Shown piece by piece: positions 52,028-55,955 of a stretch of DNA of 64,000 nt. Each line of letters opens with the position of its first letter. Position 1 is the stretch's first letter. This DNA is from Deltaproteobacteria bacterium HGW-Deltaproteobacteria-18 (GTDB lineage Bacteria; Desulfobacterota; Desulfovibrionia; Desulfovibrionales; Desulfomicrobiaceae), in contig PHBE01000020.1 of NCBI GenBank assembly GCA_002841885.1, forward strand, positions 1-64,000, written 5' to 3'. The notes under the pieces were generated by a model. The model searched no databases, was not told the origin of the DNA, and worked only from the letters and a program-made list of their open reading frames with translations. The position numbers and the translations under genes are program-made.

Positions 52028-52271
52028 GAGAGCGCCGAAAATTGATTCTGGACTGCGTTGCTCACCGATTTTGAAGGGCTCATGTAGTCGGCTACACATC
52101 GCCCTTCAAAATCGGCTCGTGCCTTGCCAGAATCAATTTTCGACGCTCTCCGGGGATTAAATTGATTCTGGACTGCGCTGTTCGTCGGGTTTGAAGGGCT
52201 CATGTAGTCGGCTACACAATCGCCCTTCAAAATCGGCTCGTGCCTTGCCAGAATCAATTTTCGACGCTCTC
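52028..52271. repeat. Two tandem 120-bp palindromic repeat units after hypD
   Basis: The first unit (52028-52150) is a long nested palindrome. Outer arms of 24 bases (52028-52051 with 52127-52150, one mismatch) enclose a perfect 15-bp inner arm pair (52065-52079 with 52101-52115), and the central loop has a TGTAG-CTACA mini-hairpin. The second unit repeats it at a spacing of 120 bases (52161-52271) with a few base differences but lacks the outermost left arm. It begins at the first base after the hypD stop. No gene is inside. It may be a REP/MITE-type element, and could also fold as RNA within the hyp transcript. Confidence 0.85.
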
Positions 52272-52390
52272 TGGGGATTTAAAGGCATTTATCCCCTTTT
52301 TCGAGGGGATGGCTTGGCGAGAAGCGTAAAAAATCATCCGCCGGTACCTCAAGGTCTTTTTTGGCATGGTCCTCGGCCTCGTCGGCTGTT

Positions 52391-52499
52391 TGACTGAGCC
52401 GGGCATCGTTTGTTGAATCGTTGCCCGGCGGGCTGTCCTGATTTGTCGCCTGGCACGCAACGATTCAACACTACGAGGCCAGCGAAGGAGTTCCGGCGG
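52391..52499. repeat. Dispersed palindromic element, copy 1
   Basis: A roughly 110-base element shared with 54741-54853, which is inverted. Conserved ends are TGACTGAG...GGCATCGTTTGTTGAATC on one side and GATTCAAC.CTACGAG.CC.GCGAAGGAGTT.CGGCG on the other. The stem here is GTTGAATCGTTGC pairing with GCAACGATTCAAC. Flanking CATGG-CCTCG strings (about 52366 and 52506) hint at further outer arms. The rest of the 52272-52691 gap holds a small hairpin at 52291-52310 and no gene. Confidence 0.8.
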
Positions 52500-52691
52500 G
52501 GTCGCGAGGGCCATGTCGACAAAGGGCCGTGTGCCGCACATGTCGAAACTCCAGAGGACGATGAGTGCCCCGCCATCGCGGGAATGACTCGGTCTTTTGC
52601 TTCGGGGCCGCGTGCCCCATATTTTGGGTTCGTTAGTTGTTTTCGTATTCGGATCAGCTGGTTACAAAGATGTCACGCAAGGGGGAAGCGA

Positions 52692-53693
52692 GTGGAAAGG
52701 GTTCTTCTTGATTACGGCAGCGGCGGCAAGGCTTCACACCGGCTCATCGGTGAGCTTTTTCTCAAATATCTGGGAAACGAGATTCTTGACCGCCTCGATG
52801 ATGCGGCCTTTCTGCATGTCAGCAGCCCCATCTCCATGAGCACCGACACCTTTACCGTGGACCCCATCTTTTTTCCCGGTGGCGACATCGGGTCCCTGGC
52901 CGTGCACGGAACTGTCAATGACGTGGCCATGCTCGGCGCGCGGCCGAAATACATGACCTGCGGATTCATCATCGAAGAGGGGCTGCCCATGGCCGATCTG
53001 GAGCGCATCGTCGAGTCCATGGGGAATGCAGCCCGCGAGGCTGGAATTCTCGTGGTCTCGGGCGACACCAAGGTCGTGCCCAAGGGCACGGTGGACAAGA
53101 TTTTCATCAACACCACGGGCATCGGCGAGATCTTCGTGACCGAGGCCCCGAGCGGGCACAGAGCCGCGCCCGGGGATGCGATCCTGATCAGCGGCTTCAT
53201 GGGTGATCATGGCCTGGCCATCCTGTCCAAACGCGAGGGTTTGACCTTCGAGGCTCCCGTGCTTTCGGACTGCGCCTCGCTCAATCACATCATCGTGCGT
53301 CTGCTTGAGGCCATCCCCGAAGTGCATGTACTGCGCGATCCGACCCGGGGCGGTCTGGCCACGACCCTCAACGAAATCGCCGGGCAGTCGGGAGTCGAGT
53401 GCCGGATTTTCGAGTCGAAGATTCCGGTCCGTCCCGAAGTCAGCGGCGGGTGTTCCTTTTTGGGCCTTGATCCTCTGTATCTGGCCAATGAGGGCAAGTT
53501 CATCTGCATCCTGCCCCAGGAGCACGCCGAGGCGGCCCTGGCCATCATGCGCTCCGACCCGCTTGGCGTGGACGCGGTGCAGATCGGCAATGTCCGTGAT
53601 GAACACCCCGGCAAGGTCGTGCTGGAAACGCCCCTCGGCGGAACCCGGCTCATGGATATGCTCGAAGGCGAACAGTTGCCGCGCATCTGCTGA
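52692..53693 (+). CDS. hypE: Hydrogenase maturation protein HypE
   Basis: HypE, 333 residues, dehydrates the carbamoyl group received from HypF on its C-terminal Cys to a thiocyanate, giving the CN ligands of the hydrogenase iron. It opens MERVLLDYGSGGKASHRLIG and has DAAFLHVSSPISMSTDTFTV, GSLAVHGTVNDVAMLGARP, RDPTRGGLATTLNEIA and the required C-terminal PRIC with the final Cys. The start is GTG 52692, with GGGGGA upstream; the frame is open further up through the repeat region, but nothing there resembles HypE. A 664-base repeat-filled gap separates it from hypD. Confidence 0.96.
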   Translation: MERVLLDYGSGGKASHRLIGELFLKYLGNEILDRLDDAAFLHVSSPISMSTDTFTVDPIFFPGGDIGSLAVHGTVNDVAMLGARPKYMTCGFIIEEGLPMADLERIVESMGNAAREAGILVVSGDTKVVPKGTVDKIFINTTGIGEIFVTEAPSGHRAAPGDAILISGFMGDHGLAILSKREGLTFEAPVLSDCASLNHIIVRLLEAIPEVHVLRDPTRGGLATTLNEIAGQSGVECRIFESKIPVRPEVSGGCSFLGLDPLYLANEGKFICILPQEHAEAALAIMRSDPLGVDAVQIGNVRDEHPGKVVLETPLGGTRLMDMLEGEQLPRIC

Positions 53694-53694
53694 G

Positions 53695-54228
53695 ATGACC
53701 TCTTCTCCCGCCTACGTGGCCATCGACTTCGAAACCGCGGACTCGCACCGCGACAGCGCCTGCGCCGTGGGCCTGACCAAGGTTCGCGACGGCGAGATCG
53801 TGGACAGGCTCTATGGCCTGATCCGCCCGCCGCGTTCGCGCTTCTCGCCTTTTTGCGTGAACGTGCACGGCATCCACTGGTCCGACGTCAAGGACGCTCC
53901 GCCCTTCCGGGAATTCTGGATCGAACATGCCCAGTTTCTGGAGGATGCGGATTTTCTGGCCGCGCACAACGCCAAGTTCGACCGCTCGGTGCTTGGCGCG
54001 TGTTGCACCATGGCTGGCCTGCCTGCTCCGTCCATGCCTTTCGTTTGCACTGTGGATCTGGCCCGCAACCAGTGGAACCTGCGTCCGACCAAGTTGCCGG
54101 ACGTGTGCCGCTATCTTGGCCTTGATCTCAATCACCACCATGCCGGGTCCGACGCCGAAGCCTGCGCCCGCATCGTCATGGCCGCCGTGGCGCAGAACCC
54201 CCGCTGTCTGGCTCCTTTCGGATTATAG
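53695..54228 (+). CDS. DnaQ-like 3'-5' exonuclease (DEDDh)
   Basis: A 177-residue exonuclease of the DNA polymerase III epsilon fold. The ExoI motif is VAIDFETADSHRDSACAVGL (D-x-E), ExoII FLAAHNAKFDRSVL (Asp), and ExoIII HHHAGSDAEACARIV (His-x4-Asp). It lacks the helicase or polymerase extension seen in larger members. ATG 53695 follows the hypE stop by one base, so it is co-transcribed with hypE, although no functional link to hydrogenase maturation is known to me. May act in DNA repair or RNA trimming. Confidence 0.9.
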   Translation: MTSSPAYVAIDFETADSHRDSACAVGLTKVRDGEIVDRLYGLIRPPRSRFSPFCVNVHGIHWSDVKDAPPFREFWIEHAQFLEDADFLAAHNAKFDRSVLGACCTMAGLPAPSMPFVCTVDLARNQWNLRPTKLPDVCRYLGLDLNHHHAGSDAEACARIVMAAVAQNPRCLAPFGL

Positions 54229-54236
54229 GAGAACAC

Positions 54237-54704
54237 ATGTCTTTGTCCCAGGCCCAGATGCGGGCCCATATCTTCCTGGTCATCCTCGATAAATTCTCCG
54301 GCAGCGCCGAACGCCGTCAGGAGGCCCTGGCCGAGTATTTCATGGTGACCATGCCCAATGTCCCGGAAGACGCCGCCCGCCGTCTGGCCGAACTCATCCC
54401 TGACCTCATGCCCGAACTGTACTCCAAATGGATCGGCGAGTTTGCAGAGCGCCTTTTTGAGACGGTCCCTGACGAGCAATTGCAACACTTGTGCGAAGGC
54501 AGCGTGGAAAACAACGCCGCCCTGGGGCTGGTCTTTCTGATGTTCATGGAGTCCGAACGCATGGAGAAGCAGACCGAGGAAGACCTGCGCCGATACGCGC
54601 GGGAACATTCGGGAAGCGATGACATGGGCGATCTGGTGGCGGCGTATCTGCGCGGCAAGGTTGATGCCCTGCGGGCGGATGTGGGTGGGGAGAAGGTGCA
54701 ATAG
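54237..54704 (+). CDS. Conserved-looking protein of unknown function
   Basis: A 155-residue, mostly helical, acidic protein, with no signal peptide or membrane span. It starts at ATG 54237 with AGGAG upstream, 8 bases after the exonuclease stop, so it shares that transcript. I do not recognise a family: visible features are only amphipathic helices and an acidic centre (MFMESERMEKQTEEDLRRYA). Base and codon use match the neighbours, which supports a real gene. Confidence 0.75.
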   Translation: MSLSQAQMRAHIFLVILDKFSGSAERRQEALAEYFMVTMPNVPEDAARRLAELIPDLMPELYSKWIGEFAERLFETVPDEQLQHLCEGSVENNAALGLVFLMFMESERMEKQTEEDLRRYAREHSGSDDMGDLVAAYLRGKVDALRADVGGEKVQ

Positions 54705-54712
54705 CGCGTGGA

Positions 54713-54896
54713 CGGTGTGTGGCGGTTGGCCCGGACAGGGGGCGCCGAAACTCCTTCGCAGGTCTCGTAGAGTTGAATCATCGCCCCTGTCGAACATGCC
54801 CCGGAATTTCAGGCGGCAGGCGATGATTCAACAAACGATGCCACGCTCAGTCAGACAGTCGACGGCACCTGTCCGGGCCAACCGCTACACACCGCA
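54713..54896. repeat. Dispersed palindromic element, copy 2 (MITE-like)
   Basis: Terminal inverted repeats of 27 bases (54713-54739 and 54870-54896, about one mismatch) enclose the ~110-base core shared in inverted orientation with 52391-52499. The core stem GTTGAATCATCGCC / GGCGATGATTCAAC differs from copy 1 but keeps pairing. It lies between the unknown protein and the ppaC terminator. No transposase gene is present, so it looks like a MITE or large REP element. Confidence 0.8.
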
Positions 54897-54978: not shown

Positions 54979-55015
54979 AAAAAGCCCGCCCAGGCGAACC
55001 TGGGCGGGCTTTTTT
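54979..55015. terminator. Bidirectional rho-independent terminator
   Basis: A perfect 12-bp stem AGCCCGCCCAGG / CCTGGGCGGGCT (54983-54994 and 54999-55010) with a 4-base loop, flanked by an A-run left and a T-run right. It ends ppaC transcription (reverse) and could end the hypE operon (forward). Confidence 0.92.
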
Positions 55016-55034: not shown

Positions 55035-55955
55035 TTAGGCGAAAGCCTTTTCGAACTTGGGCACAACGTCCTTTTTGCGGGACATGACCTTGGGCAGCCA
55101 TGCCTTTCCGTCCACGGGCTTGACGCCGAAAGCCTTCTCGACAACGCCGGCGTCGTCGGAGGCGATGAGGATCTCGGAGCCTTCCTTCATGATGTCGGTC
55201 AGCAGCAGGAACACGGAGTGGTTGCCCTTCTCGGCCTTCAGCGCGGCGATGTCGGCGGCCAGGTCGCCCTTGACGGCGTCGAGGATGGACAGGTCGACAA
55301 CTTCCAGCTGGCCGATGCCAACCTTGGTGCCGTTCATGTTGAAGTCCTTGTAGTCGCGCAGAACCAGCTCGCGGGCCGGGGTGCCTTCAACAGCGGACTT
55401 GACCTTGAACATTTCCATGCCCAGGGCGGCCAGGTCGGCGATGCCGGCGATCTTGCCCAGTTCGGCAGCGGCTTCCTTGTCGGCCGGGGTGCAGGTCGGG
55501 GACTTGAAGATGACGGTGTCGCTCAGAATGGCGCAGAGCATGATGCCAGCGATGTTCTTGGGAACTTCAATGCCGTGGAACTTGTACATGGCGGTCAGGA
55601 CGGTGGCGGTACAGCCAACGGGCCAGATCCAGCATTCCAGGGGGGTGGAAGTGGTCAGATCGCCCAGCTTGTGGTGATCGACGATGCCCAGAACTTCAGC
55701 CTGCTTGATGTCGTCGGGCAGCTGAGCCAGGTCGGAGGTATCGACCAGAAAAACTTTTTCACCGGCATATTCGGTCTTCACGGCAGGAGCGGCTACGCCG
55801 AACTTGTCGAGGATGAACTTGGTCTCGGGGGCCAGTTCGCCCTGAGCGGTCGGGGTGCAGGCTACACCGAGCTTGCTCTTCAGGTCGGCCAGCGCGATGG
55901 CGCTGCAAACGGTATCGGAATCGGGATTCTTGTGACCAAAAACATAAACGGACAT
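55035..55955 (-). CDS. ppaC: Manganese-dependent inorganic pyrophosphatase
   Basis: A family II (DHH) pyrophosphatase, 306 residues, hydrolysing pyrophosphate to drive sulfate activation and polymer synthesis. The metal-binding motifs are FGHKNPDSDTVCSAIALADL, DTSDLAQLPDDI and GIVDHHKLGDL (the DHH), plus the C-terminal substrate-binding SRKKDVVPKFEKAF (RKK). A strong TAGGAGGA ribosome-binding site and a possible promoter lie upstream, and a terminator directly follows. In sulfate reducers this enzyme removes the pyrophosphate made by ATP sulfurylase. Confidence 0.96.
   Translation of the reverse strand: MSVYVFGHKNPDSDTVCSAIALADLKSKLGVACTPTAQGELAPETKFILDKFGVAAPAVKTEYAGEKVFLVDTSDLAQLPDDIKQAEVLGIVDHHKLGDLTTSTPLECWIWPVGCTATVLTAMYKFHGIEVPKNIAGIMLCAILSDTVIFKSPTCTPADKEAAAELGKIAGIADLAALGMEMFKVKSAVEGTPARELVLRDYKDFNMNGTKVGIGQLEVVDLSILDAVKGDLAADIAALKAEKGNHSVFLLLTDIMKEGSEILIASDDAGVVEKAFGVKPVDGKAWLPKVMSRKKDVVPKFEKAFA

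Follow-up and report, generated by a model that had tools for sequence, protein, structure and literature searches.

Two palindromic segments lie in opposite orientations within the 64,000-nt stretch of contig PHBE01000020.1 that we analysed (hereafter the window), from the Deltaproteobacteria bacterium HGW-Deltaproteobacteria-18, and raise the question of what kind of element they are and in what form, as RNA or as DNA, their pairing is kept. A sequence-only reading had placed them at 52391-52499 and 54741-54853, as inverted copies with a compensated stem difference. Its positions and orientations were right, but its extents were too short, the real copies running from about 52349 to 52529 and from about 54712 to 54895. 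Both are members of one hairpin-repeat family that previously had no name.

A family of double-hairpin repeats

The repeat unit is a double hairpin of ∼180 nt. In the aligned copies an outer arm leads into block A (CTGTCTGACTGAGCCAGGCATCG), the inner stem follows with arms of 13-14 nt around a variable loop, and block B (TACGAGGCCnGCGAAGGAGTT) and the second outer arm complete the unit. Nearly every copy has the outer stem, which pairs over ∼33 bp in most copies and differs in sequence among most of them. In 76 independent copies conservation extends ∼38 nt outward from block A and ∼37 nt outward from block B, and these limits set the boundaries given below. CM denotes our covariance model, built from a 31-copy MAFFT alignment and run on 61 genomes; the gene names hypD, hypE and pyrophosphatase-like come from our reading of the translations.

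About 52349-52529, + strand: copy 1, whole element (outer stem, GA core and inner hairpin), between hypD and hypE; CM match 52366-52515, 138 bits
52353-52385, + strand: copy 1 outer stem 5' arm, variable, pairing with 52493-52528 (fold; pairing rule i+j constant)
52386-52408, + strand: copy 1 block A, CTGTTTGACTGAGCCGGGCATCG (alignment, invariant columns)
52412-52424, + strand: copy 1 inner stem 5' arm, GTTGAATCGTTGC
52457-52469, + strand: copy 1 inner stem 3' arm, GCAACGATTCAAC
52472-52492, + strand: copy 1 block B, TACGAGGCCAGCGAAGGAGTT (alignment)
52493-52528, + strand: copy 1 outer stem 3' arm (fold)
About 54712-54895, - strand: copy 2, whole element; CM match 54728-54878
54859-54895, - strand: copy 2 outer stem 5' arm, containing one 27-base "TIR" of the earlier reading (inverted repeat; fold)
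54836-54858, - strand: copy 2 block A, CTGTCTGACTGAGCGTGGCATCG (alignment)
54820-54832, - strand: copy 2 inner stem 5' arm, GTTGAATCATCGC
54772-54784, - strand: copy 2 inner stem 3' arm, GCGATGATTCAAC
54749-54769, - strand: copy 2 block B, TACGAGACCTGCGAAGGAGTT (alignment)
54712-54748, - strand: copy 2 outer stem 3' arm, containing the other "TIR" (inverted repeat)

The inner stems of the two copies differ at 2 of 13 pairs, each changed on both sides (G-C to A-T, T-A to C-G), which bears out the compensated difference noted earlier. The outer stem of copy 1 is present but less perfect than that of copy 2, and carries a 2-nt insert on its 3' side relative to its orthologues; the copy 1 fold scores z -4.3 against shuffled sequences, none of 200 being as good. 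A hypothetical gene (54237-54704) borders copy 2 on one side and a manganese-type pyrophosphatase-like gene (55035-55955) on the other. Other repeats occur close to copy 1. A different palindromic repeat, AAATTGATTCTGGACTGCG...CCAGAATCAATTT, stands at 52039-52282 between hypD and copy 1 as two tandem copies with a 120-bp period, and has relatives in the same hypD-hypE gap of four other genomes (G002, G013, G015 and G012), with 14 matches in other Desulfomicrobium loci examined; a CGTC-type REP, CGTCATTCCCGCGAAGGCGGGAATCCA, is found at ∼52569-52588 and elsewhere (e.g. L024:1128, L021:1691).

A nucleotide search of the element's own genome (3.99 Mb, 37 contigs) gave 53 matches at ∼40 places, the best non-self match with an E-value of 4.5e-41. 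The stems are kept in these copies; the sequence-only reading had staked its proposal on the existence of such copies. Related complete genomes hold 42-54 copies each, and genomes of genus g7, in another family of the same order, hold up to ∼75; G041 has ∼75 copies. G014 has 28. The CM matched in at least 25 of the 61 genomes, including 10 of 15 other Desulfomicrobium genomes; the remaining five lack the repeat, which is therefore dispensable. Among the matches listed, other families of the order have fewer copies and a few lie elsewhere in the phylum; counts from these wide searches refer to the matches listed, and absence from a genome there is weak evidence.

In keeping with the earlier reading, which knew of no named family with such a core, no Rfam 15 family reached its gathering score in the window and a permissive-threshold search likewise returned no family match; sub-threshold matches around copy 2 fall mostly on another hairpin, a perfect one, at 54979-55014. 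The repeat had no match among phages and plasmids, and block A none among viral contigs, and we found no description of it in the open-access literature, whether by sequence or by topic. At two loci of the same genome (G000:C1:220771-221458 and G000:C13:92721-93118) the element is repeated head to tail together with its flanking sequence, at a period of ∼270-280 bp, and some copies therefore multiply via tandem duplication. In G026 (L066, L195, L199) full copies are immediately preceded by half-elements that consist of block B and the adjoining outer arm, as if the element had repeatedly been truncated or copied from its middle.

Pairing, core and folding strand

The sequence-only reading had taken the paired stem differences as a sign of constraint and called for statistical support, which the family now provides. 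In a plain MAFFT alignment of 31 copies the 39-pair structure is formed in 94.8% of pair cells, as compared to 30-45% when one side is slid by 1-3 columns and 73% when shuffled; 28 of the 39 pairs have changed on both sides, and the covariation score is 0.616 versus 0.196 shuffled. For 35 divergent copies from several families of the order, in an alignment that was fitted to the model, 95.9% of pairs form and the score is 0.864 versus 0.206 shuffled.

Compensation is also seen at fixed chromosomal sites. By flanking sequence we assembled 29 groups of orthologous copies from six Desulfomicrobium genomes; copy 2 is one that six genomes have in common. Copy 1 occupies the hypD-hypE gap of G000, G001, G002, G009 and G013, and is absent from that of G015, G012, G003, G004 and G010. 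Counted as pairwise genome differences rather than events, the outer stem at orthologous sites shows 294 two-sided paired changes, 225 one-sided changes that keep pairing and 142 one-sided breaks; the inner stem shows 28 two-sided paired changes versus 47 one-sided breaks. Copies that stayed in place have therefore kept their pairing, and of the two causes offered earlier for its upkeep, selection or the manner of spread, spread can no longer be the only one.

The core between the stems, CTGTYTGA..GAG / GMGA..GAGTT, is asymmetric and GA-rich, and the part of it that is fixed across families is CTGTYTGA-NN-GA facing GA-NN-GAGTT. Its middle two positions covary (CU with AG, CC with GG, GC with GC), and it can be drawn, as a proposed geometry, as a 2-bp helix between tandem G-A steps. 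Shorter relatives of the form CTGTTTGAGC-(1-30 nt)-GCGAGTTT occur within palindromes in 16 of 198 genomes sampled across the phylum, with 41 copies in one of them, and a reversed control pattern matched nowhere in the 198; these short-core palindromes and the full elements are likely to share common descent. The short-core palindromes CTGTTTGAGCGCAGCGAGTTT, of which G453 has the 41 copies (among them L231, L246, L255) and which also occur at L236-L259, contain the extra-stable mini-hairpin motif GCGNAGC and further GA-rich internal loops.

Mismatches in the stems indicate which strand folds. Read along the strand that runs from block A to block B (the A-to-B strand), the outer stems of 71 independent copies contain 121 G-T wobbles and 16 A-C, and those of genus g7 contain 39 and 12; the inner stem shows little asymmetry (21 versus 16). 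Of 139 copies folded with DNA parameters, 123 fold more stably on the A-to-B strand. The excess of G·T over A·C implies that one strand folds. The usual C-to-T excess on the leading strand would act opposite to this asymmetry. A symmetric cruciform would expose both strands and treat G-T and A-C alike, and is disfavoured; the earlier proposal of pairing as RNA or cruciform DNA thus holds as to constraint, but its symmetric cruciform gives way to one strand folding alone.

Replication, gene context and mobility

The folding strand has a nearly fixed direction relative to replication, as read through the GC-skew convention. With tandem copies collapsed and ambiguous positions left out, one complete genome has an orientation ratio of 31:5 (p 1.3e-5) and a second one of 29:6 (p 1.2e-4), and local GC skew along the A-to-B strand is negative at 27 of 29 loci in this genome and at 17/20, 14/15, 16/18, 16/18 and 18/20 loci in five others. 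More than 80% of Desulfomicrobium copies thus have the folding strand in the polarity of the nascent lagging strand, that is, of the leading-strand template. In G015 the skew minimum lies at 3.526 Mb, near one perfect DnaA box, and the sign reverts between about 1.62 and 1.70 Mb; a dnaA gene was looked for and not found. Copies show a uniform distribution between origin and terminus (KS p 0.46), and a gradient like that of KOPS was rejected. Among orthologous copies no clear case of an orientation flip was found, in a search that clustered inverted copies blurred. Genus g7 shows no polarity by local skew (16 loci), so that polarity is not required for the module to persist. The CGTC-type REP CGTCATTCCCGCGAAGGCGGGAATCCA also follows GC skew in the same genomes (58:17, p 2e-6).

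Relations to genes are looser. Of 47 copies 46 are intergenic, and gaps between convergent genes are favoured (21/40). The upstream gene reads in the A-to-B sense in 30 of 40 cases and the downstream gene antisense in 27; flanking genes are not predominantly opposite, and no fixed orientation to transcription was found. The flanking coding lengths (71.5 versus 57.4 kb) reject a gene-strand effect as the cause of polarity, and the coding strand tracks skew poorly in a sampled genome. No conserved promoter or upstream element stands outside the stem in 76 copies.

The sequence-only reading had likened copy 2 to a MITE with 27-base terminal inverted repeats (TIRs), and this does not hold for the window: those repeats are its covarying outer stem, and true MITE ends with target duplications occur only in relatives. 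Desulfomicrobium copies, both window copies included, share no TIR, their outer arms differing among copies and covarying within each, and no direct repeat is enriched at any offset around 76 copies. In genus g7, by comparison, the module lies inside two different MITE shells. Shell I has GTAACTACTCAGCAC ends and 8-bp target duplications, perfect in 10 of 23 copies and with none at other widths. The second shell has CAGGGCATTTTTGTTCTCAC ends and duplications of 10 bp, which four independent copies, including one from a different family, show in perfect form; the single copy of G035 is in this CAGGGC shell, with its 10-bp duplication, and a broken reading frame resembling the RAYT N-terminus lies <200 bp from it (L057:1081-1326). 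In some g7 copies the module is inverted relative to its shell (L062 versus L056). Since the same core and stems recur in shells that are unrelated to each other, it is unlikely that the core serves only as a transposase site; the Desulfomicrobium copies, having neither shell ends nor duplications, are therefore old or arrived another way. The module is thus a MITE passenger in g7, and the Desulfomicrobium copies are not themselves MITEs.

What drives shell I was sought in several ways. Its 8-bp duplications and GTAA ends resemble those of IS66, yet IS66 was rejected as the driver, as neither G041 nor G024, the two richest genomes, has a PF03050 match; a candidate relic lies near one TIR in G033. 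A search for an autonomous shell I element by its 15-base TIR found no paired ends, and the 39 viral matches to this TIR are not above estimated chance. A nearby RAYT-type transposase, which the sequence-only reading had suggested looking for, is not linked to the repeat: in a Y1_Tnp survey of the 61 genomes, the CM run over 20 Y1 loci placed no copy at an intact Y1 gene. Of the 11 Desulfomicrobium genomes that carry the element 8 have Y1_Tnp genes, as does 1 of the 5 that lack it, and the copy-rich G041 and G014 have no Y1 match.

Interpretation and comparison with known systems

We tentatively favour a reading in which the selected property of the module is the folding of one strand, and its working form is single-stranded DNA at the replication fork, since the one-strand folding constraint is tied to replication and not to transcription. 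The A-to-B strand would fold into a long outer stem, the asymmetric GA-rich core, a short fixed helix and a long inner stem, most likely as single-stranded DNA made or exposed at the fork; the GA core may be the recognition site of a putative factor, with the stems as scaffolding, and the module would spread as a passenger, in relatives within two unrelated MITE-type shells. Any benefit to host or element is likewise something that we infer. Counting against a role at the fork, the leading-strand template is normally single-stranded only briefly.

Covariation is normally taken as a sign of RNA, and the repeat could instead be a structured noncoding RNA, the A-to-B transcript acting through its GA-rich internal loop and the replication orientation being a side effect. 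RNA typically shows strong covariation, wobbles of the G-U type found mostly on one strand and an asymmetric internal loop rich in purines, and the favoured convergent 3' ends are prone to read-through; however, there is no Rfam match and no conserved promoter outside the stem, and sense and antisense read-through would be about equal whereas replication direction is nearly fixed, so we consider this rather unlikely. We give still less weight to a selfish single-strand mobile palindrome of the REP or IS200/IS605 type, moved by a Y1 (HUH) transposase acting at the lagging-strand template, with only folding copies able to move. The polarity, the extragenic convergent placement and the missing target duplications in Desulfomicrobium would suit it, IS200/IS605-type elements making none, as would the skewed distribution of Y1_Tnp genes, the like polarity of the CGTC-type REP and the broken RAYT fragment adjoining G035's copy. 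Yet G041 and G014 reach their copy numbers with no Y1 match, the element flanks none of the intact Y1 genes, the lagging template would contain not the folding strand but its complement, TIR-type transposition is how g7 copies moved, and compensation continues in copies that have not moved.

Least probable, in our estimate, is upkeep of the palindrome without selection, through template switching that copies one arm onto the other, together with an orientation bias from the loss of strong hairpins whose folding strand is the lagging template. Template switching reportedly creates hairpins and maintains them via compensatory changes (PMC8794818), and the more strongly folding A-to-B strand is indeed kept out of the lagging template. 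Arm copying, nonetheless, would mend G-T and A-C without distinction, but G-T is by far the commoner; the GA-rich internal loop is unpaired yet conserved over families; and the best-scoring wrong-way copies in G015 are undecayed (150-152 bits).

Covariation that comes, as here, with a fixed direction relative to replication and none relative to transcription may mark selection on the folding of chromosomal single-stranded DNA. More broadly, and doubtful as a whole, these could be phylum-wide, structure-defined chromosomal elements, with a CTGTYTGA..GAGTT GA core between drifting stems, that act as folded fork DNA (or as an undescribed RNA), are read by a putative protein, and are carried between genomes in unrelated MITE shells. 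The family provides copies by the hundred, as well as orthologous sites, complete genomes and relatives that naturally lack it, so that the choice between DNA and RNA is directly testable, and the presence of the module in two MITE types with different duplications raises the question of what a hairpin passenger does for its carriers.

Among known systems, the repeat resembles Rfam structured RNAs in that helices covarying on one strand enclose an internal loop that is conserved and rich in purines. The letters of the integron attC pattern, GTTRRRY/RYYYAAC, are present but in opposite order, and attC was rejected. Like MITEs, the modules of g7 (and once of G035) are enclosed in non-autonomous elements that have TIRs and duplications of 8 or 10 bp, but the covarying stem of Desulfomicrobium copies is no transposase end. 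With IS200/IS605 elements (PMC6006769) it would have in common single-stranded secondary structure as the recognition unit, and it shares ties to the replication fork, the orientation being fixed to the fork in Desulfomicrobium only and unbiased in g7; it differs in having no linked Y1 transposase and many copies in Y1-free genomes, and in its relation to the fork strands, which is opposite to the one required if the folded strand were the transposed one.

The closest comparisons are with extragenic palindromes. The GTAG- and CGTC-tagged REPs (PMC3733652) are palindromes of 20-40 bp with an unpaired tag at one end, found in many phyla, some within longer palindromes, and hypothesised to be mobile; our repeat is likewise an extragenic palindrome, but is ∼180 nt long and, by positional conservation in 76 copies, has no GTAG or CGTC tag at its ends, while a repeat that fits the CGTC type, CGTCATTCCCGC-GAAGG-GCGGGAATCCA, coexists with it in the same genomes, beside copy 1. 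REPINs (PMC3116915) are inverted REP doublets that form hairpins and are predicted to act as single-stranded DNA or mRNA; they too are extragenic and numerous, with conserved blocks around a hairpin whose stem changes in a compensatory way. The blocks of a REPIN are inverted copies of one REP, whereas block A is unrelated in sequence to block B, which lies opposite it in a single internal loop, and the hairpin repeat is longer, has a second covarying stem outside and has no RAYT linkage. We rate the hairpin repeat, high-copy and extragenic, as a kind of repetitive extragenic palindrome that lacks the tag, the inverted REP pair and the RAYT linkage by which REPs and REPINs are defined.
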